Positions 2,096-61,659 of a stretch of 61,659 nt of DNA are shown one piece after another (positions within the stretch are counted from its first letter, which is position 1; the number at the start of each line of letters is the position of its first letter). The stretch covers positions 1-61,659 of the forward strand of contig JADLHA010000007.1 of the NCBI GenBank assembly GCA_020848995.1. Direction: 5' to 3'. Source of the stretch: Saprospiraceae bacterium (GTDB taxonomy: Bacteria; Bacteroidota; Bacteroidia; Chitinophagales; Saprospiraceae). The notes below the pieces were generated by a model, which saw only the letters and a program-made list of their open reading frames with translations, did not search any database and was not told the DNA's origin. A program made the position numbers and the translations under genes.

Positions 2096-2239
2096 AATAG
2101 CGCTAATTTACAGAAATTGTCCAACTCTTAGAGCCGCAAGATCAGATCAGAACGAAAATATTGACTGCCAAAGGTTTATAAGGGGAGCTGTTTTGAAAGA
2201 AAATGTGTGTCCGTGAAAGTAAATATTGAATAAGTGTGG

Positions 2240-2247
2240 TAAGTTTG
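2240..2247 (+). promoter_or_regulatory. Candidate Bacteroidota -7 element (TAAGTTTG) for the giant gene
   Basis: TAAGTTTG matches the Bacteroidota TAnnTTTG -7 consensus and lies 56 bp before the chosen ATG at 2304. No TTG is seen at the expected -33 spacing, so support is from the -7 element alone. Confidence 0.35.
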
Positions 2248-2303
2248 CCGAGTCTTTCCATACGAAGCTGGAAGGGCACATAGACGAACCTAACTCAAAT
2301 CTC

Positions 2304-5300
2304 ATGAAAAGACGCCAGCAGTCCTCTGCCGCAGGCATTTGTCCTGTTTTACGCATTGCTGTAATTTCCGTTTTATTTTTACTCACCACCCATTCGGCAA
2401 GTGCCCAAATCGACGTAAGCTCCTCAGGTGGAGCGCCAATGGGCTCTTATGCAACCCTTTCCGCTGCCTTCGACGCCATCAATGCGGGAACGCACACAGG
2501 GACAATTGCCATACTGGTCACGGGCAATACGACTGAGCCGGCTGCTGGGGCAATCCTCCAGGCCAGTGGGACGGGCTCTGCCAGTTACAGTTCAATTCTT
2601 ATCCAGCCATCGGGGGGTGCAGCGCGCACCATTTCCGGTGCAGCAACAGCAGGAACCGGCCTGGTGCAGCTCAATGGGGCAGATTACGTCACCTTCGACG
2701 GACTGAACACCGGAGGGAACAGCCTGACCATCCAGAACACTACCGTTTCTTCAACTTCGGGGACCAGTACGATCCATCTTCAGGGAGATGCCACATTCAA
2801 CACGTTTACCAACCTAAACGTAAACGGCGCCGGAACCATGGCCGTGGGAACCAATGGGGGCAATTTCTGGTTTGGAGCGTCTTCTGTGACGACGGGGCAG
2901 GACAACAACCTGATCTCCAATTGTAAGATCGGCCCGGTCGGGACGAACTATCCCACGAAAGGCGTTTACAGCAACGGTACTACGACCACCGCTGGCCAAT
3001 ACAATAGCAAAAACACGGTAACCAACTGCGAGATCTTCGACTACTTCGGCACCGCAGCACAGAGCGCCGGCATATACATTACTTCGGGAAGTACCGAATG
3101 GACCATTACCAACAACAAATTTTACCAAACCGTTTCCAAGACCCAGACTACCGGTTCCATCCATGCGGCCATACAAATCGGAAGTGCCAACGTCGATGGC
3201 TGTGTGATCACGGGCAACACCATCGGTTATGCCAACGCTGCCGGAACCGGAATGTACCAATGGGTAGGTGCTACTACCTCGTCTCGAATGGTGGGCATCT
3301 ACCTGTCTTCCCACGGCTCGACTCAAAAGACCATTATATCGAATAATACCATACAGAATATTTCTCTTTCGGGAACACTGGGAAGCACGACGGCAAGTTC
3401 AGCGTTTGTTGGCATTCAGATCTCTAGCGGCTGGTCTGATTGCAATAACAATACCATCGGCAGCTTAGATGGCACTAAAACCATTTTAATTGCCAATTCA
3501 AGTACCTCGACTTCGGAGGTTTATGGCATTTACTCCAGTGCTTCTATTGCTGCTGTGACCACGTTCAACAATAACTCCATTGGAGCAATTACCCATTCTA
3601 ACACCAACACTGCTGCATGTGGCTTAGTCGGACTTCGCGCAGGAAGTAGCTCTTTAAATGATCTGATTATTGAAGGCAACACATTTGGCAACTCTGGTGC
3701 AGAGCTAAAAACCATTAACAATTCCACAACGGCTTCCTTAAACGGCAATACGGTCATAGGAATTTATGTGTTGTCTTCCATTCATCAAATCAAAAACAAC
3801 CTCATTCGCAACTTGACGACCAACAACCAGTCGACCGGCACATCGACCTCTTCTTCCGTTCAGGGAATGTACATTTCCTCTGCAGCTTCGGGTTCCGTGG
3901 TTTCCGGCAACACCATCCATTCGTTGTCGAATACCTCCCCAGCGGCGAATGCCTGGGTAAACGGGATCACCATTAGCTCCTCAACGGCTCTGCTAACGGT
4001 TGAAAAGAACTTCATCCATTCTCTGGTCATTTCGGGGACCGGGTCGACTGCCACGATCAATGGAATGTACATCAACGGTGGTTCGACGCGCTTTGTCAAC
4101 AACATGATTCGTCTTGGAGTGGATGCTGCAGGAAATTCCATCACCAGTGGATTGGCCATAAACGGGATCAACGAAGTCGGTGGTACGGTGAGTACGTTTG
4201 TGCACAACTCCGTTTATGTTGGGGGAACCGGCGTGGCAACCCTTTCCAACAACACCCATGCCATCAACAGTACTCGCACATCAGGCGACAGAAAGTATGT
4301 AAATAATATTTTCTTCAATGCCCGTTCGAACAGTGGGTCAACCGGAAAGCATTACGCAATTAAGCTTGGAGGCACCGGGGTTAATCCCGCGGGCTTATTG
4401 AGCAATTTCAACGATCTTTTTGCCAACGGAACCGGTGGGAATGTTGGCTATTACGACCTGGCCGACCGGCTCACCTTGTCGGACTGGCGTACGGCCACCG
4501 GACAGGATTGCAATTCGGTGAGTGGGGATCCCCGCTTTGTTGCCCCCAATGGCACGGCTTCAACGGTTGATCTGCACATCGTCACCACCATGTTGCTCAC
4601 ACCCATTGAGAGCGCAGGTTCACACGATTATTCGGAGACAATTGATTTCGATGGCCAGGCGCGGGCATCGCTCACTCCGGTAGATATCGGAGCGGATGCC
4701 GGTTTCTTTTTGGTACTCGATCAATCGGGCCCTTCAATTTCAGTTACACCCCTGGAGGGCATATGCGGAACTGCCGACACAGCCTTAATAGGCGTTCACA
4801 TTACCGACGCAACTGGAGTTCCCGTTATGGGGTCTTTGGTTCCGCGCATCTATTACCGCAAAAACTCCGGTGCATGGGTCTCACGCGCGGGTATCCTTAC
4901 TTCGGGGAGTGCGACCGACGGTTACTGGCGCTTTAATCTGGTAATGGCTGATGTTGGCGGAATTGTGGTTGGCGATGTCATTGATTATTTTATCCTTGCC
5001 CAGGATGTTTCAGGCCCTCCCAACATCTCTTCGGCACCAGCCTGTGCTACGGCAAGCGACGTCAACACCCTCATCATTTCTCCCCCTGCGCCTTATACGG
5101 CAAGTGTCAAGGGTTCCATAAGTGGAACGTTCACTGTAGGGGTCGGGGGCGATTACACCACGCTTACAGCAGCTGTAGCCGATTACAACAGCAAGTGCCT
5201 CACCGGTCCCGTCGTCTTCCTGCTTACGGATGCTGCCTATCCTTCGGAAACCTTCCCGATCACCATCAACCAGGTTCCAGGTCAAAGCGCAGCCAATACC

Positions 5301-8300
5301 CTCACCATCCGGCCCAGCGTCGGCAATGTTGCCACCATTTCCGGAAGTTCGACCAGTTGCATCATCCGGTTTAATGGAGCGGACTGGGTCATTATAGATG
5401 GTTCGAATTTCGGAGGCACAGACAGGAGCCTGACGCTTTCCAATACCTCAACAAGTTCCAGTACCGCAGTTGTCTGTGTGCAGAGCCTCGGTACCGCCCT
5501 CGGCGCTACCCACGACGTAATCCGCAATTGCAACATCATCGCAGGGTCCACAACCGTCTCTTCCATTTTTGGAATTCATGTGGCAGGAACGACTGTGAGT
5601 ACCAGCGCAACGGGTGACGACAACGACTACCTGACCATTCAAAACAACAGCATTAAAAAGGCGTATTATGGCATATATGCAAGGGCGACGGCAACGGGTC
5701 GCAACGATTCGCTGAAAGTTCTCAACAACAGCATAGGGGCAAATGTAACGGCCGATCAAATTGGCAAATACGGTATGCAGCTGTTCGAAGCTGACCATGC
5801 CCTCATCTCCGGCAACGAAGTGTTCAATATTGTAGGAACGGTTACGAACCCTACCGGGATCAGGATTGAAGCCGGGATAGTCAATTCCTCAATTACCAAG
5901 AACAACATCCATAATCTATTTTATACGGGTTCAAGTGGTTACGGTGGAAAGGGCATAGACGTGGCTACCTCGGCAAATGCCAATGTCACCATCAGCAACA
6001 ACTTCGTGAGCAAGATGCGTGGCGACGGTTGGAGCACCTTCACATCGGATGCCATTGTGGGTATCCGGATACTGTCTCCTTCGACGGGAATCAATATCTA
6101 TAACAACTCGGTTTTGCTCGATGATCTGGTGTCGCGATCCTCATCATCGGACGTCAGCGCAGCACTCTACCTTCATGCCGCTGCCTCCTTGATGAACGTT
6201 AAGAACAACATCCTGATCAACAGGATTTCCAATATCACGGGTACGGCGAAAGCGTATGCCATGGCCTCCGATGCACCGGCTTCAGCTTTTATCAACATCG
6301 ACAACAACGATTACTATGCAAGTGGACCGCAGGGTGTGCTCGGCAGGAATTCAGCAGCTGCTGACATGGTCACCCTGGCAGATTGGAGGGCCTTTACGGG
6401 TAAAGACCTTCTCTCAGTGAGCGTAGAGCCAGAATTTGCGGACACAACTGACCTGCACCTCCCGGAGCTGCCTGAAAATGAATGTCTGAACCAGGCAGGC
6501 ATGGTCATACCAGGGATTGCTGAAGACATCGACGGAGAACCCCGCAATCCATCTAACCCGGACATCGGTGCCGACGAGTTCGATGGCGATGACCTGACCA
6601 TCACGGTGACGGAAACGTCTGGTACACCAAATGACAAGTTTATCTGTGCCGGTTCTTCTGGAACTCTGACCGTAGCTGGAGGCTCTTCCCATAAATGGAA
6701 TACCGGCGAAACGACGCCCGCCATCACCAAAGCTCCCTTTATTACGACAATTTATTATGACTCCGTCACGGTCGCTCCAGGTTGCCGTGTGGTCATGTAC
6801 GATACCTTAAAAGTATTGCTTGCTCCGAGTGCTGCTATCGCTCCTGCAATGAGCAATATCTGTGCGGGCGCTAGCCAGACCCTTACCGCTTCTGGCGGCA
6901 CAGCCTACCTGTGGGACAATGGTTCCACCAATCCCGTTCGCATAGTTACACCACTTACATCGACCAGCTACACGGTCACAGTAACCGGACCGAACGGTTG
7001 TACGGGCATCGCCGTTGCCAGTGTCGGCGTATTGCCTGCACCTGTTGCCAGCATCTCGGCTTCTTCCACCGTGATATGTTCCGGGAATACTTCCACACTG
7101 ACCGCTTCTGGAGGAGTGAGTTATCTATGGAGTACAGGTGCAACTGATGCATCTATTGACGTTAGCCCGACTTCCACAACGACCTATACGGTAACCGTCA
7201 CGGCAGCTAACGGGTGTACGGATGATGCTTCCATTACCATCACTGTTTTACCCGGGGTAAGCATTGCGGAGACCCATGTTGAACCCTCAACTTGTTTTTC
7301 ACTCGACGGCTCCATTAACCTTACGGTCAGCGGCCAGGCGCCTTTCCATTACAACTGGAGCACTCCGGATGGATCGGGGCTTGTCAACGGACAGGAGGAC
7401 CAAACCGGTCTGTCAGTAGGTTCGTATTTCGTGACCGTGACCTCTCTTGCAAATTATTGCACAGCCACTAAGGTCATCTCGCTCACGGGACCCGGCAATT
7501 GCGGCGGTTGCCCCAGCATGGGAAGTCTGCTCGTCAGTACAGGAGTCGTCTGTAAGACGACGGACTTTACGCTTACAGCCACGGGCCTTGCCGGCATGGG
7601 TTCGCAATATGGCATATTGTTTAAATATTCAGCCTCCCCTCTGATGGATCCTTATAGCGGAGGCACCACCCTGGGCATCGTTCCCAATGCCGGGCTCACC
7701 AACGGAGGAACTACGGCAGTGCTGACAACAGCTATCCCATCCGAGGACAGCTATTACCTCTATGCAATTCTCACTCCAACTCCGCCCAGCACCAATTGCA
7801 GACCCTCCGCATCCAACAACATCGTGGTACTGAAGTGCACTCCTGAAATCGATGACCCATGTGCCTGTAAGAACAACGCCACCACACTGACCAACGGCCA
7901 ATTCAATGAAACCATACTGATCAACGCACCCAGCGGACAATCCTGGCAAGTGGTCAGCAGCAGCGGTTTGTACCAATCGAACAGTCCGGCTCCCCCCGCA
8001 GCACCCATACCAATTCCCAACGGTACCCTGTTTACGGAAACTGCCCTTGGAGGCGGGGTGAGCAATTACACGCTAACGGGCGTTCATGTGGATGCCCTGG
8101 GATACAGCGCCACCTTCGGAAATGGCAGTCTGACCCCATCACTTGCCCACACTTGCTACTATCCCAATCCTGCAATCGTCGGACTTACCAATACGTATTG
8201 TGCCAATGATCCGGCGGTGCCGTTGGTTGGCAATGCTCAACTCGGAGACGGCTCGGGTCCGGCTTCAGGTGTTGGAACTTTTACCGTTAATGGCAATTCC

Positions 8301-11300
8301 ACTACCGTTTTCAATCCGGCAATTTTAGGGCCCGGTACTCATCTGGTCGTGTTCAGTTTTGACGCGGCTGACGATACCCCAACTGAAGAACATCCGGGTT
8401 GCACCCAGGCCGTGTCGAAGTCTGTGGTCGTCAATCCGGTACCGGTAGTCAATCAGGTAGCCAACCGCTATCTCTGTGTCGGCCAGTTATCCGCAGCCAT
8501 TGTGTTTACCGGAACGCCCGCGGGAGCCATTTATCAATGGACCCGGACACCGGCGGCCATCGGACTGGCAGCAACCAGCGGCTCCGGAAGTGTGCCCAGT
8601 TTTACTGCCACAAACAGCGGCAATACACCTTTGAGTTCGACCTTTACCGTAACGCCTTACTACACAAATGGCGGCATCACCTGTACCGGTACGCCCATGA
8701 CCTTTGTCATCGTAGTGAATCCTACACCGACGGTCAATCCGGTTGCTGATGTTCAATACTGCCATGGCGATTTGACGACCGCAATCAACTTTTCGGGCAG
8801 TGCACCAGGAACGGTTTACAATTGGACCCGTACCCCTGAGTCAATTGGATTGGCCGCGACCAGCGGAACGAACTCCGTACCTCCCTTTACGACGACGAAC
8901 CCGGGAACCACGCGCATTACGAGTACATTCACCGTCACTCCGGTGTTTACCAATGGAGGCACGAGTTGTACAGGAACGCCCATCACTTTCAGGATTTCTG
9001 TATTGCCTCAACCTGTTGCGCGGTGCAAGGACGCCACACTTTACCTCGATGCCAATGGACAGGCAGCATTGACCATTCCCGATATCGACAATGGTAGTAC
9101 TGCCTATACCCTCAGCCTAAGCAAAGAGGCCTATGACTGTGGAAATATTGGTACAAATACAGTAACCCTTACCGCAAGGGATTCGTGCGGGAAGAGTTCT
9201 TCCTGTAATGCAACAGTCATTGTACTGGATACAATCCGGCCGAGCCTTTGGTGCCCGAAAGACTGGACCGTCAACCTCGATCCGGGTGAGTGCACCAGGG
9301 CCATTGTTTTTGACGAACCCGAGGCCACAGACAATTGTGAAATTAGCGTCTCAACGGCAACGGGAAGTATTCAGACGACCTTTACCTCAAACAACCAGTT
9401 TGCCGGGAACATGTTCAACCTGACCAACATTTCAGGGGGTAGGATTACCATCAACTCTATGGCTGGGAACATCTCCGCAACGGTTGGTACCAACGTCATT
9501 GTCGAAGTGTACTATACTCCGAATACGTATATCGGCAAAGAAACGAATCCTGCTGCCTGGACTTCCCTTGGTGTTGCAAACGCTGCCTGTGCAGGGATCA
9601 ATCAACCAACTTTATTCAATATTGGCGGTCTGAGTTTGAATCCAGGCGAGACTTACGGGATCTATTTCCATTTGGTTAACTACACCGCGGGATCGATTGC
9701 CCTGCGTTATACCAACGGGACCGCAACGTACAACAACGGTGACCTGAGCCTTTTTGCCGGAGTTGGAAAAGCTACACCCGCCTTCACGGGCACCACGTTT
9801 GCAAGCAGGATCTGGAATGGAAGAATCAATTATTCCAAGCAAATCATTGTTGGAGCTCCTCCCACGGTCACTCAAACAGACAACTCGGGGTACAAAAACG
9901 GCGATTATTTCCCGAGAGGGACAACCTGTTTGTCCTTTGAGGCTACGGACTTTTCTGGCAATAAGTCGACATGCGAATTCTGCATTACCCTGGTGGATTA
10001 TCCAAATCCGAATGCCGAGCTGGCATGTCACGATCTCATACAGGTCAGTCTCGACGAAAACTGTTCGGCTACCATTGGCGCCGATGAAGTGCTGTCAGGC
10101 GGTCCGTATCGATGCTTTGAAGATTACCGCATCATCGTCCAGGATTGGATAACGGGTGCAGTTATCGATCGAAATGCGAGCTTGCGTGGATCCCAGGTAA
10201 GCTCTCAGGACATTGGAAGGCGATTGAAAGTAACGGTGATCGATACGGTAACGGGCAATAGTTGCTGGTCGATGGCAACCGTAGAAGACAAACTGGCACC
10301 ACAGATGGTCTGTCCATCGGATACGTGTATCGTTTGTGGCACCAGTGGTACCTCGCCGATCTTTATGGGAACTCCCAGGGTAACCGAGAACTGCGGCGGA
10401 TATTCGTTAAGCTACTCAGATCAAGTCGAACAGGGTGGATGTGGCGCTGGTTTTGAAGAACGCATCACACGCACCTGGGTAACGGAAGATGCATCTGGAA
10501 ATGTAAACACCTGCATACAGGTGATCACGGTGAGTCTGGCCACCCTCAATTCCATCGGCGTACCCCTGGATTACGACGATATTGAAGCTCCGGCGCTTGC
10601 CTGCGACGAAAAAATCAATCCGACGAAGGATTACACACCACACTTCCTGCCATATCCATATTGCGTCGATGGCTACCTGTTGGATTCTGCGCATTGGTTT
10701 GCCACAGGCGGCTTCCTGCCAAGTCCGAATGGAGACCTGGCTGGAGAACGGCTTCCGAGAACGCTGGGCTGGAATTGTCTGGACACGGGACTTTATATCG
10801 GGCACCCAAGCCCGTGGCCAATTTACTGGCCTGCGCACCCCAGCTGGAGACCCAATAATCCCGTTTGCTGGGGACCGGATGAAATCATCCAGTGGCAGGG
10901 CACAGGATATCCCTCGGGTAGCGGTTGTTCAAATCTGGGGATCACCTTCCAGGACGTCATTGCCAGCATTGCAAAACCCGAATGCGATGCGGGAGAAATT
11001 GGTTGCTACAAGTTATTGCGCCAATGGACCGTGATGGACTGGTGCACCGGTGAAGTGGGCGGCCACAACCAGGTGATCAAAGTCATCGACCGCAAAGGGC
11101 CGGAAATCCTGTACCCGGATACGGTAACAGCTGCTATGGATCCCTGGCGCTGCTTGGGAATCTGGGAGGTACCCAAACCCTGGTTGGTGGACAATTGCAG
11201 CAACGAATTGCACTATAGCGTAATTTGCATTACGGGCGTTGTCACCGGTAATGAACTGGATGGCTTCATCGTGTCTAACCTGGAAAGGGGTGTGAACGAA

Positions 11301-14300
11301 GTCATTATTGTTGCTGAGGATTGTTGCGGAAACGTGACGAAAAGGCGCGTTGCAGTCAATGTTGCCGACAATACTCCGCCGAATGCGGTTTGTGACCAAC
11401 GAACAATCGTAAGTTTGACAGGCAACCAAAGCCCGAATGAGAATTTTGGGAAAATCTTTGCCCGTGATTTTGATCAGGGCAGTTTCGATAACTGCTCGCC
11501 CCATGTATTCTTTAAAGTGATCCGCATGGAGCACCTTCGCGGAACAAACAATGGCAGCAACGCTGCCCAAGCTGATGACGGCGCCAATTGTGCCGGCGTC
11601 AACGGCGACGATAATGCGATACTTGAAGGCAACCAGATCTATTTTGACGATCACGTCAAATTCTGCTGCAGCGACGTTGGCAACACCATTCTGGTCGTCT
11701 TGCGGGTTTTTGATGTGGAGCCCGGAGATGGCCCCATTTTCCCTAACCGCATGAATCCGGGTGGCAACCTGTTTAACCGGTTCAGCGATTGCATGATTGA
11801 GGTGGAAGTTCAGGATAAAAGCGTTCCAACCGTTGTGGCTCCGCCAAACATCGTGGTAAGTTGTTGGTTCTGGTTCGATGTTGACAAACTGACGGATCCT
11901 AACGACCCGACTTTCGGAAGGGTTGTAAACGACCTGACTGCCAGAAAGAAGGTGGTAACGAGAGATCTGGTTTGCCACAATTACTGTTTGCGCAACGACA
12001 TCACGGGATATCCCGGTTTCGTTCCCGGAGCACCACCATCCAACCCACCTGCGTGGAATCGCGCCTGCGCGTTCTACCAGGAACTCTTTGATACTTCCCA
12101 TGCCGATCGCAAATACGAACTAACCTGGGGCTTCGACGGCACCGTATTGGGAGCATGTGGTACCAATTTCAGTATTTCCGTCAACGACAACCGCGAATGC
12201 GGACAGGGACAGCTGACGCGTACCGTCGTAGCACGTGGTCCCAACAACATCAGCGTAACACAAACTCAGACCATCTGGGTGGTAGACTGCGATCCTTTCT
12301 ATATAGACCGCGAAAATGCTTGCAATGGTGAAGACGACATCACCTGGCCAGGCAACTGCACGGGTCAGGCGACAACGATCACCGGATGCGGCGCTGACCT
12401 CAGCCCAGACAATCCGGCTCTTGGCCGCCCAATCGTTGAAAATAACTCGGATGACTTGTGCGCATTGATCAGCATAGAGTACGTAGACGAGGTATTTACC
12501 ATCGAGCCGGATGCATGCTTTAAGGTGCTTCGCCACTGGACCGTCATCGACTGGTGCCAGTACGATCCGAACCTCGATCTAAACAGAGGCCGCTGGGAAT
12601 ACTTGCAAATTATCAAGGTCACCGACAAGATTAAACCAGTGGTCAGCATCAACATCGGTGACTGCGAACCAGCAACCAAGACAAACGGCGTGTGCTATGG
12701 TCATATTACAATGAGTGCTACGGCTACTGACGATTGCAGCCCGCTGGATTGGCTGTTCTACGAATACAAAATCGATGCATTCAACGATGATCAGGGCAAG
12801 TATCCCGGATTTGACTTCATCGTAGGCCCCCTGACGCAGAAGGAGTTCGCAGCTGGCCGCGCTGCCAAATTCAACGACAATCCGCTGGCTGACTTCCCCG
12901 GCAATCCGTTTGACGCAAGCGGAACCTATCCGGTGGGGGTCCACAAGATCTGCTGGCATGTTGAAGACGGTTGCGGAAACGTTGGCATCAACTGCCAGTT
13001 GTTCGAGATTAAGGATTGCAAGGCACCTACGCCCTACTGCCACATTGGGGCCATCACCACGGTCATGCCTTCAAGCCAATGTGTTACGGTCTGGGCAAAA
13101 GACCTCGACGCCGGCAGTTTTGACAACTGTACAGAGAAGGAAGATCTCCGTATCTACTTCGGCGATTACGACAGCGACAGTTTGACGATTTGCTGCGAAG
13201 ATTTTGTAAACAACAAAGTCAATGACGAGTTGATCATTCCAGTGGTCATTTGCGTGGAGGACGAAGAGGGCAATAAAGACTGTTGTGAAACCACACTGGT
13301 TGTTCAGGATCCTCAGGACGTTTGCCCCAACGTAGGTACAGCAGCCCGAATCACCGGGGAGCTCATGACCCTGAACAACGATGGAGCCGCAAACGCCGAT
13401 GTCCAGCTACTCGACCGCCACATCATGATGAAACAAATGAAGACAACCGGAACCGGAAAGTATCTGTTCGGAGACCTCCCGTACGGTGCATCCCAGGAAT
13501 ACGTTGTCAAGCCAGGAAGAGATGATGATCCTCTCAATGGTGTTAGCACAGCAGATATCGTTAAGATCCAGCGCCACATTTTGGGAATAGAAGAACTCGA
13601 CAATCCATACAAACGGATTGCCGCTGATGTCAATCTGAGCAAATCGATCAGTACGTCGGACATTTCTGAAATCCGCAAATTGATCCTTGGCATTAACCCG
13701 AAATTTACCAATTCACCCAGTTGGACGTTCGTTCCGCAGAATTATGTGTTCCCCGACCCCTTGAAACCCTGGAACGCTCCAGACCAAGCGGTAGTACCGG
13801 TAACCGATGCGGTTGACGTCATTCAGAATTTTATTGCTGTTAAGGTGGGTGATGTGACGAACAATGCAAGAGGGAATAACCTGGCAGGAAGTAGCAGCCG
13901 CAATGGTGGGGCTCTCCATCTGGAAATGGGAGGAGACGTATTGAGGGCCGGTGAAGTTCACCGCATTGCTGTCCGGGCGGCTGATTTTAAAGGAATTACT
14001 GGTTATCAGTTCACCTTGCATTTCGATCCGGGAATGTTGCAATACGAAGGGTTCGCTCCTGGTCTGCTTGTATTGGAGGATGCAAATTTTGGAACAAGTC
14101 ATCTGGAGCAGGGCTACTTGTCAACGAGTTGGAACAGCAGTGTTCCTATGAGTGCTACCGGCGATGAGGAACTTTTTGCACTGTACTTCAGGGCATTGGC
14201 CGACGCAAATCCTTCGCGGGTATTTAGCATCGGTTCCGAAGTGACCACCGCGGAGGCATACCGTGCGGATTTGCAAGTTTTGGACGTTTTGCTGAATGTG

Positions 14301-14591
14301 CGCAATCGCGAGGGAGGAGTCGAAAACGCGATGTTCGAACTGTACCAGAATACTCCCAATCCGTTTACAGAAGAAACAGTGATTTCCTACCGGCTTCCCG
14401 AAGCTAGTCCGGTTACCCTGAGTGTCTACAACTTGGGCGGAAAAGTGCTTAGGGTCTTTGAACTCCAGGGGGGCAAGGGGATGAACACAATTAAGCTTAA
14501 CCGTGATGAAATCGGTGCTGCCGGCGTCATGTATTACCAACTCGATGCAGCCGGATTTACGGCAACCCGTAGGATGGCAATCGTCGAGTAA
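2304..14591 (+). CDS. Giant exported modular protein: beta-helix, PKD-like, HYR, dockerin-like, cohesin-like, T9SS sorting domain
   Basis: A 4,095-residue surface or secreted protein. ATG 2304 is chosen over an upstream in-frame TTG at 2226 because it starts a clean signal peptide (KRR, hydrophobic core, cleavage near ASA|Q35). Order of parts: right-handed beta-helix repeats at about 40-803, ending DIGADAG; an Ig-like linker; a second beta-helix at about 941-1431, ending DIGADEF; three Ig-like copies with ASGG-YLW cores (1446-1650); a SprB-like repeat (1651-1733); two 95-residue PKD-like repeats (2044-2233); a HYR domain from about 2309, interrupted by a roughly 165-residue module and resuming to about 2563; a long cysteine-rich DNC-containing region (2660-3670); a carboxypeptidase-regulatory-like segment; paired dockerin-like Ca-binding repeats (about 3745-3797); a cohesin-like domain (3866-3985); and a type IX sorting domain (4008-4095, with NTPNPF). 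Likely exported by T9SS and anchored or released; an adhesin or matrix role is inference. Confidence 0.9.
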   Translation: MKRRQQSSAAGICPVLRIAVISVLFLLTTHSASAQIDVSSSGGAPMGSYATLSAAFDAINAGTHTGTIAILVTGNTTEPAAGAILQASGTGSASYSSILIQPSGGAARTISGAATAGTGLVQLNGADYVTFDGLNTGGNSLTIQNTTVSSTSGTSTIHLQGDATFNTFTNLNVNGAGTMAVGTNGGNFWFGASSVTTGQDNNLISNCKIGPVGTNYPTKGVYSNGTTTTAGQYNSKNTVTNCEIFDYFGTAAQSAGIYITSGSTEWTITNNKFYQTVSKTQTTGSIHAAIQIGSANVDGCVITGNTIGYANAAGTGMYQWVGATTSSRMVGIYLSSHGSTQKTIISNNTIQNISLSGTLGSTTASSAFVGIQISSGWSDCNNNTIGSLDGTKTILIANSSTSTSEVYGIYSSASIAAVTTFNNNSIGAITHSNTNTAACGLVGLRAGSSSLNDLIIEGNTFGNSGAELKTINNSTTASLNGNTVIGIYVLSSIHQIKNNLIRNLTTNNQSTGTSTSSSVQGMYISSAASGSVVSGNTIHSLSNTSPAANAWVNGITISSSTALLTVEKNFIHSLVISGTGSTATINGMYINGGSTRFVNNMIRLGVDAAGNSITSGLAINGINEVGGTVSTFVHNSVYVGGTGVATLSNNTHAINSTRTSGDRKYVNNIFFNARSNSGSTGKHYAIKLGGTGVNPAGLLSNFNDLFANGTGGNVGYYDLADRLTLSDWRTATGQDCNSVSGDPRFVAPNGTASTVDLHIVTTMLLTPIESAGSHDYSETIDFDGQARASLTPVDIGADAGFFLVLDQSGPSISVTPLEGICGTADTALIGVHITDATGVPVMGSLVPRIYYRKNSGAWVSRAGILTSGSATDGYWRFNLVMADVGGIVVGDVIDYFILAQDVSGPPNISSAPACATASDVNTLIISPPAPYTASVKGSISGTFTVGVGGDYTTLTAAVADYNSKCLTGPVVFLLTDAAYPSETFPITINQVPGQSAANTLTIRPSVGNVATISGSSTSCIIRFNGADWVIIDGSNFGGTDRSLTLSNTSTSSSTAVVCVQSLGTALGATHDVIRNCNIIAGSTTVSSIFGIHVAGTTVSTSATGDDNDYLTIQNNSIKKAYYGIYARATATGRNDSLKVLNNSIGANVTADQIGKYGMQLFEADHALISGNEVFNIVGTVTNPTGIRIEAGIVNSSITKNNIHNLFYTGSSGYGGKGIDVATSANANVTISNNFVSKMRGDGWSTFTSDAIVGIRILSPSTGINIYNNSVLLDDLVSRSSSSDVSAALYLHAAASLMNVKNNILINRISNITGTAKAYAMASDAPASAFINIDNNDYYASGPQGVLGRNSAAADMVTLADWRAFTGKDLLSVSVEPEFADTTDLHLPELPENECLNQAGMVIPGIAEDIDGEPRNPSNPDIGADEFDGDDLTITVTETSGTPNDKFICAGSSGTLTVAGGSSHKWNTGETTPAITKAPFITTIYYDSVTVAPGCRVVMYDTLKVLLAPSAAIAPAMSNICAGASQTLTASGGTAYLWDNGSTNPVRIVTPLTSTSYTVTVTGPNGCTGIAVASVGVLPAPVASISASSTVICSGNTSTLTASGGVSYLWSTGATDASIDVSPTSTTTYTVTVTAANGCTDDASITITVLPGVSIAETHVEPSTCFSLDGSINLTVSGQAPFHYNWSTPDGSGLVNGQEDQTGLSVGSYFVTVTSLANYCTATKVISLTGPGNCGGCPSMGSLLVSTGVVCKTTDFTLTATGLAGMGSQYGILFKYSASPLMDPYSGGTTLGIVPNAGLTNGGTTAVLTTAIPSEDSYYLYAILTPTPPSTNCRPSASNNIVVLKCTPEIDDPCACKNNATTLTNGQFNETILINAPSGQSWQVVSSSGLYQSNSPAPPAAPIPIPNGTLFTETALGGGVSNYTLTGVHVDALGYSATFGNGSLTPSLAHTCYYPNPAIVGLTNTYCANDPAVPLVGNAQLGDGSGPASGVGTFTVNGNSTTVFNPAILGPGTHLVVFSFDAADDTPTEEHPGCTQAVSKSVVVNPVPVVNQVANRYLCVGQLSAAIVFTGTPAGAIYQWTRTPAAIGLAATSGSGSVPSFTATNSGNTPLSSTFTVTPYYTNGGITCTGTPMTFVIVVNPTPTVNPVADVQYCHGDLTTAINFSGSAPGTVYNWTRTPESIGLAATSGTNSVPPFTTTNPGTTRITSTFTVTPVFTNGGTSCTGTPITFRISVLPQPVARCKDATLYLDANGQAALTIPDIDNGSTAYTLSLSKEAYDCGNIGTNTVTLTARDSCGKSSSCNATVIVLDTIRPSLWCPKDWTVNLDPGECTRAIVFDEPEATDNCEISVSTATGSIQTTFTSNNQFAGNMFNLTNISGGRITINSMAGNISATVGTNVIVEVYYTPNTYIGKETNPAAWTSLGVANAACAGINQPTLFNIGGLSLNPGETYGIYFHLVNYTAGSIALRYTNGTATYNNGDLSLFAGVGKATPAFTGTTFASRIWNGRINYSKQIIVGAPPTVTQTDNSGYKNGDYFPRGTTCLSFEATDFSGNKSTCEFCITLVDYPNPNAELACHDLIQVSLDENCSATIGADEVLSGGPYRCFEDYRIIVQDWITGAVIDRNASLRGSQVSSQDIGRRLKVTVIDTVTGNSCWSMATVEDKLAPQMVCPSDTCIVCGTSGTSPIFMGTPRVTENCGGYSLSYSDQVEQGGCGAGFEERITRTWVTEDASGNVNTCIQVITVSLATLNSIGVPLDYDDIEAPALACDEKINPTKDYTPHFLPYPYCVDGYLLDSAHWFATGGFLPSPNGDLAGERLPRTLGWNCLDTGLYIGHPSPWPIYWPAHPSWRPNNPVCWGPDEIIQWQGTGYPSGSGCSNLGITFQDVIASIAKPECDAGEIGCYKLLRQWTVMDWCTGEVGGHNQVIKVIDRKGPEILYPDTVTAAMDPWRCLGIWEVPKPWLVDNCSNELHYSVICITGVVTGNELDGFIVSNLERGVNEVIIVAEDCCGNVTKRRVAVNVADNTPPNAVCDQRTIVSLTGNQSPNENFGKIFARDFDQGSFDNCSPHVFFKVIRMEHLRGTNNGSNAAQADDGANCAGVNGDDNAILEGNQIYFDDHVKFCCSDVGNTILVVLRVFDVEPGDGPIFPNRMNPGGNLFNRFSDCMIEVEVQDKSVPTVVAPPNIVVSCWFWFDVDKLTDPNDPTFGRVVNDLTARKKVVTRDLVCHNYCLRNDITGYPGFVPGAPPSNPPAWNRACAFYQELFDTSHADRKYELTWGFDGTVLGACGTNFSISVNDNRECGQGQLTRTVVARGPNNISVTQTQTIWVVDCDPFYIDRENACNGEDDITWPGNCTGQATTITGCGADLSPDNPALGRPIVENNSDDLCALISIEYVDEVFTIEPDACFKVLRHWTVIDWCQYDPNLDLNRGRWEYLQIIKVTDKIKPVVSINIGDCEPATKTNGVCYGHITMSATATDDCSPLDWLFYEYKIDAFNDDQGKYPGFDFIVGPLTQKEFAAGRAAKFNDNPLADFPGNPFDASGTYPVGVHKICWHVEDGCGNVGINCQLFEIKDCKAPTPYCHIGAITTVMPSSQCVTVWAKDLDAGSFDNCTEKEDLRIYFGDYDSDSLTICCEDFVNNKVNDELIIPVVICVEDEEGNKDCCETTLVVQDPQDVCPNVGTAARITGELMTLNNDGAANADVQLLDRHIMMKQMKTTGTGKYLFGDLPYGASQEYVVKPGRDDDPLNGVSTADIVKIQRHILGIEELDNPYKRIAADVNLSKSISTSDISEIRKLILGINPKFTNSPSWTFVPQNYVFPDPLKPWNAPDQAVVPVTDAVDVIQNFIAVKVGDVTNNARGNNLAGSSSRNGGALHLEMGGDVLRAGEVHRIAVRAADFKGITGYQFTLHFDPGMLQYEGFAPGLLVLEDANFGTSHLEQGYLSTSWNSSVPMSATGDEELFALYFRALADANPSRVFSIGSEVTTAEAYRADLQVLDVLLNVRNREGGVENAMFELYQNTPNPFTEETVISYRLPEASPVTLSVYNLGGKVLRVFELQGGKGMNTIKLNRDEIGAAGVMYYQLDAAGFTATRRMAIVE
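8433..9002 (+). repeat. Two tandem 95-codon PKD-like repeats inside the giant gene
   Basis: Unit 1 starts at the Asn codon of VNPVPVVNQVANRYLC (8433) and unit 2 at the matching Asn of VNPTPTVNPVADVQYC (8718). The following segment restarts at the corresponding Leu codon of VLPQPV at 9003, so the period is exactly 285 bp. Shared landmarks in both units are YxWTRTPxxIGLAATSG, STFTVTP and CTGTPxTF. These correspond to the PKD-like modules common in Bacteroidota T9SS cargo. Confidence 0.8.
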
Positions 14592-15827: not shown

Positions 15828-16844
15828 ATGAGCAAAATTGCAAAGAGCTTCTGGAAGAGACCGGAAGGCGTTACTGGAGCCCTGGTACTGGGTGGACTCA
15901 TCGGAGGAGGCGCATTTCTTCTGTCAAAAGGCATTCCGTTCCTGGTAAAGATGATGGCGAGCACCTTGTCTTTTGCCGCAATGCTGGCAGTACTTGGTGT
16001 CATCCTCTACATCGCTCTTGACCCCAAAATGCGAGCGCTCATCTTCTATGCTTATAAATCCGCAATGCGGTGGATTACCTCCCTGTTTATCAAAATTGAC
16101 CCCATCGATATTTTAAAAAACTACGTCGCCGACTTAAAGGATAATCTGGGAAAAATGAATCGCCAGATCACCCGGTTGAGAAGCCAGATGCACGTATTGC
16201 GCGAACAGATCCACCAGAACACTCGGCAGATTGACGATAGCCTCGGGGAAGCAGAAAGGGCAAGACAAGGCAACCAGCAAAAGGTCCTCGTGTTAAAATC
16301 GCGGCAGGCGGGCCGGCTTAAGGAGTCTAACTACAGACTGGAAGACTTATACGCCAAGATGCAGGTGCTTTACAGAATATTGGTTCGGATGTACGAACAT
16401 TCGGAAATTCTCGCGGAAGACATCAACAGTCAGGTCAGCATCAAAGAACAGGAGCGGGCGGCAATACGCGCCAGCCACTCGGCCATGAAATCTGCTATGA
16501 GCGTTATTTCAGGCGATAAAGACAAACGGGCAATTTTTGAAGAATCGCTGGAAGTCCTCGCAAACGACATCAGCGGGAAAGTGGGAGAGATGGAGCAGTT
16601 TATGGAGGTCTCTGAAAACTTTATGGCTTCGGTCGACCTCCAAAATGGGGTGTTTGAGGAGGAGGGTCTGAAAATGCTCGAAAAATGGGAAAAAGAGGGC
16701 ATTTCCAGTTTGTTGGGTGAGGAGAAGAGGGAATTGGTCAGTACAGATACCACGCTTCAGCTTCCAGATGCTCCAACCGGTGAGGAATTGCCATCCTCTG
16801 CCGAGCTGAAGAGCCGTTACGAAGAGCTGTTCCGCAAACCTTGA
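15828..16844 (+). CDS. Membrane-anchored coiled-coil protein of unknown function (module gene 2)
   Basis: A 338-residue protein. Residues about 16-70 hold two hydrophobic segments (GALVLGGLIGGGAFLL and STLSFAAMLAVLGVILYIAL). About 250 residues of mostly helical, charged coiled coil follow (for example MNRQITRLRSQMHVLREQI), and the acidic tail ends SRYEELFRKP. The layout, membrane hairpin plus long coiled coil, resembles scaffold or membrane-stress proteins of the PspA type in shape only; no motif justifies naming it. It follows the coiled-coil gene at 15137 by 25 bp. Its TGA stop lies inside the TTGA target duplication of the mobile element that starts at 16845, so the insertion left the reading frame intact. 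Confidence 0.7.
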   Translation: MSKIAKSFWKRPEGVTGALVLGGLIGGGAFLLSKGIPFLVKMMASTLSFAAMLAVLGVILYIALDPKMRALIFYAYKSAMRWITSLFIKIDPIDILKNYVADLKDNLGKMNRQITRLRSQMHVLREQIHQNTRQIDDSLGEAERARQGNQQKVLVLKSRQAGRLKESNYRLEDLYAKMQVLYRILVRMYEHSEILAEDINSQVSIKEQERAAIRASHSAMKSAMSVISGDKDKRAIFEESLEVLANDISGKVGEMEQFMEVSENFMASVDLQNGVFEEEGLKMLEKWEKEGISSLLGEEKRELVSTDTTLQLPDAPTGEELPSSAELKSRYEELFRKP

Positions 16845-17074
16845 GGGCACTTCTAAAAACCCCCTCTTGCGCCAGCCAGCCCGCACAGGCTCAAGCGCTC
16901 AATGAATTTAGCCTCACAATACTTCGTTGCAGCTCAGTCAGTTATCGGTCCACATAGCTTCCTTCGCTGCGCCTCGGCTTGTTTTGCTAAATTCATTCTG
17001 GCATCAACAGGGAGTGAAGAGAGGCAGCCCTTTTCATTCTGGCATCAAAATGGAGTTTTTAGAAGTGCCCTTGA
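16841..17074 (+). mobile_element. MITE-like element, copy A (226 bp plus TTGA target duplication)
   Basis: The element runs 16845-17070 and is bounded by perfect 16-bp terminal inverted repeats, GGGCACTTCTAAAAAC (16845-16860) and its complement (17055-17070). It is flanked by direct TTGA copies (16841-16844 and 17071-17074). Inside there is a 12-bp inverted repeat AATGAATTTAGC (16901-16912) / GCTAAATTCATT (16986-16997) and one and a half 41-bp units, marked by CATTCTGGCATCAA at 16994 and 17035. No convincing coding sequence is present. A second copy lies at the right end of the window in the opposite orientation. The cognate transposase is not in the window; the family is unknown to me. Confidence 0.85.
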
Positions 17075-17221: not shown

Positions 17222-18514
17222 ATGAGGATCTTCAAATTTGGCGGAGCATCCGTTAGAGATGCTGCGGGGTTTCGGAATGTAACTTCAATCATTCAGCGAT
17301 TTCGCGATGAGAAACCACTTGCCATTGTGGTTTCCGCAACGGGAAAGACCACAAACAAACTGGAAGACGTGGTGGCTGCAAAAAAGCATTCCGCTGCAGA
17401 TTCCCTTGCGTTGCTCGACGCCATTCGCCAGCATCATTACTCCATAGTAAAAGAGCTCTTCGGACAACTTCCGGCGGAGTTGGACCTGCATCTTCAGGAG
17501 CATTTTGTGGAAGCCGAATGGATTGTTGAGGAACAGCGGGAAATGCAAGACGATTACATCTACGATCAGGTGGTGAGTGTCGGCGAACTCGTTTCGAGCC
17601 GGATCCTCGCCGCCTGGATGATCCATGAGCACCTGGATGCCGTGTGGGTCGATGCGCGCGATCTGATCATCACCGATGAGAGCTACCGTCAGGCAAGGGT
17701 AAACTGGGATGAAACCAACCGCAGAATCAGCGATAAGCTTGCCGCTTCCTTACAGGCGGGTAAAGTCGCAGTGGTGCAGGGCTTTATTGGTTCTACCAAA
17801 GAGAACAATACCACGACGCTTGGCCGTGAAGGCTCAGATTATACAGCCGCTATACTCGCCAACGCACTGGATGCAAGCGGCATGTATATCTGGAAGGATG
17901 TACCCGGTGTCATGACGGCCGATCCGGATTTTTTCGAAAATGTTACGAAACTCGACCGGCTAAGCTACCGCGAAGCCATCGAAATGACCTATTACGGTTG
18001 TAAGGTCATTCATCCCAAAACAATCCAGCCAATTAAATTGAAGGGCATACCGCTTTACGTGAGGTCATTCCTAAACCCCGAGGAGGAAGGTACGGTCATA
18101 GCTGGCGACCTTGACCTTGAATATCCTCCGATCGTTGTGCTGGAAGGTAAACAGGCATTGTTACATTTTTCTTCAGCCGATTTGTCCTTTATTGCAGAGT
18201 ACCATCTTGCTTATCTGTTTGGCTTACTTGACAAATACAGGATTCAGGTAAACATGATGAGGAATTCGGCAATCTCTTTTACCGTTTGTGTGACGAATGA
18301 ACCCATCCGCATCCAACAGTTTGCGGCTGAACTGAATCCTATGTTCAAACTGGTCATTGATCCAGAGCTGGAATTGCTGACGGTGCGCCATGTTCAGGAG
18401 TCAATGCTCCCCGGTCTGGTGGAGGGGAAGATCGTTCTGCTGGAGGAGCGATTTAAAAACACAGTTCAAATGGTCATGAAGGCGTCAAAGCCCATTGTTC
18501 CCCGCAGGGGCTGA
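17222..18514 (+). CDS. lysC: Aspartate kinase
   Basis: Phosphorylates L-aspartate with ATP, the first step toward lysine (via diaminopimelate), threonine and methionine. The 430-residue protein has the amino-acid-kinase start KFGGASV (residues 5-11), the catalytic TLGREGSDYTAA segment near residue 201, then KDVPGVMTADP and MTYYGCKVIHPKTI, all characteristic of aspartokinases. The region after about residue 310 is compatible with ACT-type regulatory folding, implying amino-acid feedback control. There is no homoserine dehydrogenase domain, so it is monofunctional. ATG 17222 gives the canonical N-terminus. Its 3' end overlaps the convergent barstar gene by 30 bp. Confidence 0.92.
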   Translation: MRIFKFGGASVRDAAGFRNVTSIIQRFRDEKPLAIVVSATGKTTNKLEDVVAAKKHSAADSLALLDAIRQHHYSIVKELFGQLPAELDLHLQEHFVEAEWIVEEQREMQDDYIYDQVVSVGELVSSRILAAWMIHEHLDAVWVDARDLIITDESYRQARVNWDETNRRISDKLAASLQAGKVAVVQGFIGSTKENNTTTLGREGSDYTAAILANALDASGMYIWKDVPGVMTADPDFFENVTKLDRLSYREAIEMTYYGCKVIHPKTIQPIKLKGIPLYVRSFLNPEEEGTVIAGDLDLEYPPIVVLEGKQALLHFSSADLSFIAEYHLAYLFGLLDKYRIQVNMMRNSAISFTVCVTNEPIRIQQFAAELNPMFKLVIDPELELLTVRHVQESMLPGLVEGKIVLLEERFKNTVQMVMKASKPIVPRRG

Positions 18515-61347: not shown

Positions 61348-61659
61348 GGGTACTTCTAAAACCTCCCTGTTGATGCCAGAATGAAAAGGGCTGCCTCCCT
61401 CTACTCCCTGTTGATGCCAGAATGAAAAGGGCTGCCTCCCTCCACTCCCTGTTGATGCCAGAATGAAAAGGGCTGCCTCCCTCCACTCCCTGTTGATGCC
61501 AGAATGAATAGGGCTGCCTCCCTTCACTCCCTGTTGATGCCAGAATGAAAAGGGCTGCCTCCCTCCATTCCCTGTTGATGCCAGAATGAATTTAGCAAAA
61601 CAAGCCGAGGCGCAGCGAAGGAAGCTATGTGGAGCGATAACTGACTGAGCTGCAACGAA
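61348..61659 (-). mobile_element. MITE-like element, copy B (cut by window edge, inverted relative to copy A)
   Basis: The left end is GGGTACTTCTAAAAC (61348-61362), one substitution and one missing A compared with the inverted repeat of copy A. After six 41-bp units, 61579-61659 is nearly identical to the complement of copy A (one difference seen, a C/G change in the TGGAsCG stretch). The element runs off the window, so the right end and target duplication cannot be seen. It is placed 18 bp after the acyl-CoA dehydrogenase stop. No gene is encoded. Confidence 0.8.
61363..61590. repeat. 41-bp tandem repeat, six copies, inside element B
   Basis: Units begin at 61363, 61404, 61445, 61486, 61527 and 61568, each starting CTCCCTGTTGATGCCAGAAT (the last starts TTCCC), with a few base changes in the spacer part (CTCTA, CTCCA, CTTCA). 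The last unit runs into the conserved core. The period of 41 is not a multiple of three, so open frames crossing it are incidental. Copy A has only about one and a half units. Confidence 0.9.

Follow-up and report, generated by a model that had tools for sequence, protein, structure and literature searches.

A Saprospiraceae element family with two internal tandem arrays, very probably a non-autonomous IS5-type MITE

A 226-bp element situated directly behind a stop codon in a stretch of 61 659 nucleotides of Saprospiraceae DNA (the whole of the analysed stretch, positions 1 to 61 659 of contig JADLHA010000007.1 in assembly GCA_020848995.1, is referred to here as the window) is an insertion that carries a 4-bp target duplication, and it belongs to a family in which two internal units, A and B, have been amplified in tandem. 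The element is very probably a non-autonomous IS5-type MITE moved in trans, with units A and B amplified in tandem within many of its copies. Judging from the sequences compared, the family is apparently orphaned in the genome that contains the window. An IS5-family transposase acting in trans would recognize the GGGCACTTCTAAAAAC ends and insert the element at a T(T/A)(A/T)A-like site, where a cut staggered by 4 bp would account for the 4-bp duplication.

Structure and surroundings of the window copy

The window copy, its two neighbouring genes and a second member of the family at the right end of the window have the following coordinates.

15828..16844, + strand: upstream ORF, 338 aa, with its stop inside the target duplication; 86.8% DNA identity to the sister species
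16841..16844, no strand: left TTGA of the 4-bp target duplication, including the TGA stop of the upstream ORF; a single ATGA at the empty site of the sister species
16845..16860, + strand: left terminal inverted repeat GGGCACTTCTAAAAAC, from sequence reading and the end scan
16859..16988, + strand: unit A, single in the window copy (query positions 19-148); in tandem with a 148-bp period in other copies
16901..16912, + strand: left arm of the internal 12-bp inverted repeat, AATGAATTTAGC
16986..16997, + strand: right arm of the internal 12-bp inverted repeat, GCTAAATTCATT
16992..17056, + strand: unit B region, equal to one 41-bp B unit (24-nt repeat present twice, 41 bp apart, 92%)
17055..17070, − strand: right terminal inverted repeat GTTTTTAGAAGTGCCC
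17071..17074, no strand: right TTGA of the target duplication
17222..18514, + strand: downstream aspartate kinase gene, TIGR00657 above its cut-off
61348..61659, − strand: second family member, truncated where the contig stops; comprises the right end, a B array of 41-bp units (5.6 copies by TRF) and part of an A unit

The element proper (16845-17070) extends to 234 bp when both TTGA copies are included. The 16-bp perfect ends, the TTGA on either side and the 226-bp body described in the initial annotation proved to be exact on reading the sequence, and the internal 12-bp inverted repeat that it mentioned was located at the positions given above. The terminal arms reach 26 nt at 88% identity, and for the internal inverted repeat arms of 19 nt at 84% can be aligned. 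The same annotation had described the body as being without a gene and the left TTGA as containing the stop of the upstream gene; no gene was seen in the 226 bp, in which one forward frame has a stop-free stretch of 71 codons, and the TGA is indeed that of the ORF at 15828-16844. Since the insertion site is the TTGA over this stop codon, neither neighbour is broken. With one A and one B, the window copy represents the basic unit A1B1. It is also the sole pair in the window that combines a 16-bp perfect inverted repeat within 400 bp with identical 4-bp flanks, and 30 shuffles of single bases in 1-kb blocks yielded no such pair at 16 or 12 bp and one in total at 10 bp.

The upstream ORF gave no Pfam or NCBIfam match at E 0.001. 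The aspartate kinase gene, compared on its own, aligned in other congeners at 65-69%. Elsewhere in the window, positions 2226-14591 form one ORF of 4121 codons.

Copies, ends and distribution of the family

Further copies, which had been expected of a mobile element, were found in abundance: 77 blastn pieces fall in 40 places of the window genome, halves at contig ends being counted apart. The 15-bp end has 33 exact matches in this genome and 99 sites at two or fewer mismatches, compared with eight for a reversed control pattern. A search with the body in 60 genomes, including that of the window, gave matches in the window genome and in a sister species only, the latter being one of eight congeners searched, of which the other seven gave no match; a search of a plasmid collection gave no match to the element.

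Both ends could be placed for 32 elements of the window genome, which measure 118 to 697 bp with the boundaries given, the right boundaries being off by some bases in four of them (L015, L023:6928, L049 and L054). Identical 4-bp flanks are present in 15 of the 32 (an unfiltered count), compared with 11.4% when the flanks of different elements are re-paired, and the four elements with displaced boundaries are among the 17 that have no perfect 4-bp duplication. T is the first base in 54 of the 64 flanks and A the last, again in 54 of 64; TTAA is among the commonest duplications, and TTGA, TGTA, TAAA and TTTA are used too. Another set, of 35 pairs, had been selected beforehand to have no more than one mismatch between the flanks; it counts one locus of the sister species twice (L089 and L170), and its 20 of 35 is not to be read as a rate. 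Ends of the CCTCGAATAACC type flank both sides of copies L020, L031 and L033, so that the two ends seem to change together.

Some elements have other interiors. In the sister species, L172:1705-2759 shares the ends of the family but encloses another internal tandem repeat and a stretch of N, and one of its frames, itself repetitive, stays open for 269 codons. In the window genome, the larger members L049 from position 2053 (roughly 650 bp) and L050:2060-2756 (697 bp) hold a block with a palindrome of the GTTACTTTCTTTTGC type, a close form of which is present in L172.

The distribution and folding of the copies also bear on a reading of the family as a BOX-like regulatory repeat, kept for a role in RNA or DNA such as a terminator, mRNA stability or phase variation, with mobility only in its past. 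As assessed by a simple ORF method, none of the 32 copies lies inside an ORF and ten overlap an ORF edge (the neighbouring genes are in tandem at 19 copies, convergent at eight, divergent at three and unplaced at two); this would suit such a role, but gene avoidance also follows from selection against gene damage. The window copy is predicted to fold to −84.5 and −93.9 kcal/mol on its two strands, figures with no shuffled control behind them, whereas an alignment of 26 copies gives next to no consensus structure (−2.0 kcal/mol), which is itself weak evidence because the presence of B units shifts the right ends between columns, leaving even the terminal repeats unable to pair. The layout is a further point of resemblance: in the available text of PMC3049150, the BOX elements of streptococci have fixed ends, a variable number of tandem inner modules and many scattered copies, and BOX-type elements of S. 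suis can hold a second inner module, boxD. The present family agrees with this published description in its modular interior between fixed ends and its scattered copies, but differs from it in having two amplified units in a fixed order, the larger of which covers most of the element body. An Rfam search of the window, in which a tRNA was the only match, and the differing occupancy of sites between the two sister species both count against a BOX-like role, which is considered to be unlikely, and a mobile IS5-type MITE remains the preferred reading.

Tandem arrays and contig ends

In other members of the family A is repeated with a period of 148 bp and B with a period of 41 bp, and in the copies read the A array lies towards the left end and the B array towards the right, with the exception of L044, at the start of contig C25, in which a right-type end is followed by A units. 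Six tandem B units are readable in L021, and a complete array of 1087 bp in the sister species (contig C5, 48431-49517) contains six A and four B units. In the latter, units 4 and 6 are identical and units 3 and 5 are 96% alike, an alternating likeness that points to the duplication of a two-unit block. The mean identity of units within an array (0.917 for 29 pairs; 0.926 for the 17 pairs of adjacent units) is only slightly above that between arrays (0.896 for 813 pairs in the window genome and 0.889 for 303 pairs in the sister species, where one locus enters twice as L089 and L170), and local homogenization is therefore weak overall. The arrays probably grew when neighbouring units recombined unequally or slipped during replication, and array-bearing copies would then have spread by transposition.

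A 23-bp G-rich linker is common to both arrays in opposite orientation, reading CAGGGAGTGGAGGGAGGCAGCCC in B and as its complement at the A–A junctions. A likeness between this linker and the terminal repeat was considered and dropped, GGGC being all that the two share.

Repeated adjacent insertions, instead of growth in place, would also place units next to one another, and two elements do lie side by side at one locus (L041:2050-2419); the A–A and B–B junctions that were read, on the other hand, hold the linker and no ends, which makes such an origin of the arrays quite improbable. It is also quite improbable that the arrays constitute a device with which a mobile element builds satellite-like blocks at dozens of sites, with growth driven by the linker and with structured spacers or binding sites as the outcome. 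On that reading, as the same linker occurs in opposite orientation in both arrays, growth may be driven by this tract, through fork stalling or slippage, and the long arrays may serve as chromosome-wide structured spacers or binding sites.

At least 24 of the 104 contig ends of the window genome (52 contigs), including the right end of the window, fall inside elements of the family. These are the starts of contigs C13, C24, C25, C31, C32, C33, C38, C41, C43, C45, C47 and C51 and the ends of C7, C8, C10, C13, C19, C23, C31, C33, C36, C40, C45 and C48. The half element at the right end of the window and the half with which C24 starts have the same flank, TTAT in element orientation, and in the sister species both flanks are found in one contig, 18 bp apart and without an element; the window contig therefore most likely continues into C24 through an unassembled array.

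The contig ends at C23 and C31 look like halves of one element, with the same 4-bp flank and a single contig of the sister species spanning both; the sister species carries a 95-bp element near this site, which is either the same or an independent insertion. A further repeat with many copies (matched over about 126 bp at 98-100% identity) is situated at the end of C41 and the start of C38 in the sister species and at the end of C18 and the start of C19 in the window genome, occurs elsewhere in both genomes as well, and is perhaps an unassembled insertion sequence.

Elements with the same ends and their transposases

A scan for exact ends in a collection of species genomes gave at least 110 loci, six of those listed being from the sister species; by arithmetic estimate, chance would give about 15 of the loci listed. 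Among the matches listed, the end is present in Bacteroidetes, Ignavibacteria, Spirochaetes, several Proteobacteria, Campylobacterales, Nitrospirales and others, and since many of the end-bearing records are MAGs, some of these taxon assignments may be wrong. A partner end (five or fewer mismatches, within 1.8 kb) together with identical 4-bp flanks accompanies 50 of the 110 loci listed and is missing from the other 60, a count that has no control. TTAA is the commonest flank of the 50 paired loci listed (15 loci). Their lengths are 68-279 bp in 46 cases, 695 bp in one and 1259-1282 bp in three, the commonest length of the paired elements listed being 97 bp (7 of 50).

The three long elements, L105, L110 and L182 (1279, 1259 and 1282 bp), originate from Bacteroidetes and Ignavibacteria MAGs and have TTAA on both sides, with zero, one and zero mismatches, respectively, in the second end. 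For the proteins of L105 and L110 (346 and 341 aa), the two covered by the profile scan, the NCBIfam model NF033581 ('IS5 family transposase', cut-off 140) gives 278.5 and 283.8 bits, and both proteins match PF05598 and PF01609; L182 is 67% identical to L105 by tblastn. As IS5-family transposases are encoded in elements with the same ends, the transposase family, which the initial annotation had left open, can be assigned. The window element resembles these three at its ends, which are the same over 16 bp (with one mismatch in L110), and in its 4-bp duplication, and differs from them in having no transposase gene. Other mini-elements (for example L096, L125, L139 and L163), with Spirochaetes, Pseudomonas, Alphaproteobacteria and Sulfurimonas among the matches listed, have the same end.

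Of 150 genomes from the taxonomic family of the window, 11 match the protein of L105 at E 0.001, and the match is strong in two of these (G017 and G021, E about 1e-97); the element in G017 (L207) is 1268 bp long with ends GGGCACCTCTATTAAC and GTTTTTAGAGGTGCCC. The assembly of the window genome contains neither a PF01609 (DDE_Tnp_1) match nor a match to the L105 protein, and as this assembly is a draft with many gaps at repeats the missing transposase is weak evidence. A relic is found in the sister species, where a 58-residue C-terminal match to the L105 protein (41% identical) lies beside an end GGGAACCTCGAACAACC and is cut by another repeat; a second GGGAACCTCGAACAACC end stops at the end of contig C65. 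The autonomous insertion sequence with the same ends that had been proposed as a check thus exists in three other genomes, with an IS5-family transposase in the two tested, and was not found in the window genome. On the strength of these sequence comparisons, an IS5-type transposase is likely to have moved the window copy, and its source would now be missing from the window genome or lie in an unassembled part of it.

Transposases of the IS1380/piggyBac type are linked to TTAA, and TTAA is among the commonest duplications of the family. It is nevertheless very improbable that an unrelated TTAA-preferring transposase of this type is the mover: PF13701 has no matches in the window genome, the elements that share its ends and duplication encode IS5-family transposases, and the four other duplications named above also occur.

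Filled and empty sites

In the sister species, a congener that is 83.5-87% identical across the DNA of the window locus, gene order is the same but no element separates the two genes, and a single ATGA stands where the window has TTGA twice. Its empty site reads ...AAACCATGA followed by ACGCCGGCAATTTCAGG, whereas the window reads ...AAACCTTGA, the element and TTGAATTCCGTCAATTTCAGG. The empty site that had been anticipated in a relative was thus present, although its letters differ by substitutions from the predicted CCTTGAATTC. This comparison identifies the window element as a real insertion. Filled and empty sites can also be paired for the array on contig C5 of the sister species (TAAA), which is empty on C52 of the window genome, for an element on C3 of the window genome (TATA, with TATC as the right copy), which is empty in the sister species, and for an element on C49 of the window genome (TGTA) within another repeat, where the relative without the element reads TGCA. 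At a fifth site, the right end of the window, the sister species is without the element and 18 bp at the junction do not align. An ancestral non-mobile repeat deleted in the sister species, to which the presence of the family in just two genomes of the genus might point, is scarcely credible, as deletion would need the exact removal of the element and one 4-bp copy and as the four comparisons of this kind differ in direction between the two genomes.

At L020/L092 the two genomes are 95.5% identical over 4.1 kb that include one element, and fully identical over 330 bp around it, in contrast to about 84-87% at the window locus; this reflects either recent exchange or strong conservation.

The copies, the empty site and the partner elements elsewhere support the initial reading of a non-autonomous DNA transposon, or MITE. 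The window copy combines small size and no transposase gene (one array-bearing copy of the sister species being 1087 bp long) with perfect 16-bp terminal inverted repeats, a target duplication and empty site at its own locus (15 of 32 duplications being perfect in the family) and many copies (77 pieces in 40 places, and 99 end sites), and the ends and duplication that it has in common with elements encoding an IS5-family transposase characterize it as an IS5-family derivative.

Relation to known elements and significance

The kind of element described here is already known. BrickBuilt and MITEPgRS/MITE464 from Porphyromonas gingivalis are published IS5-type MITEs with an internal minisatellite; according to the available text of PMC4596501, the minisatellite units are of 23 nt, or 41 nt in MITEPgRS, and BrickBuilt contains 1 to 22.8 repeats, is intergenic, coincides with gaps in unfinished genomes and has irregular duplications. 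The present MITEs, too, come from Bacteroidetes, have IS5-family-like ends and enclose a minisatellite, the copy number of which is variable in the family; the window copy has one unit of each kind. They differ from those published elements, as far as described there, in their ends, GGGCACTTCTAAAAAC as opposed to the GAGACC/GAGACT types (compared by eye with Table 2 of PMC4596501), and in having two arrays of different unit length per element, and from BrickBuilt in their common 4-bp duplications; the 41-nt unit of MITEPgRS and the 41-bp B unit have the same length.

BrickBuilt is also named in a review on MITEs of prokaryotes (PMC10969869), the available text of which contains no word beginning with 'tandem'. 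The 14-bp end string has no occurrence in the literature searched, and a query for Saprospiraceae with 'miniature inverted-repeat' returned, in the text accessible to it, a bioreactor study only. Other literature searches brought up PMC4596501 with two further P. gingivalis papers, work on Drosophila and Anopheles, and a general review. As far as the literature searched goes, the suggestion of a possibly undescribed element in this lineage holds and, to the same extent, the family, its two-array layout and its opposed linkers are new.

The family provides a second Bacteroidetes lineage with minisatellite-bearing IS5-type MITEs, in this case with two amplified units to an element, and explains roughly one in four contig ends in the assembly of the window genome. 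As one transposon end with 4-bp duplications is found on mini-elements across many phyla, the question of what mobilizes them becomes directly testable.
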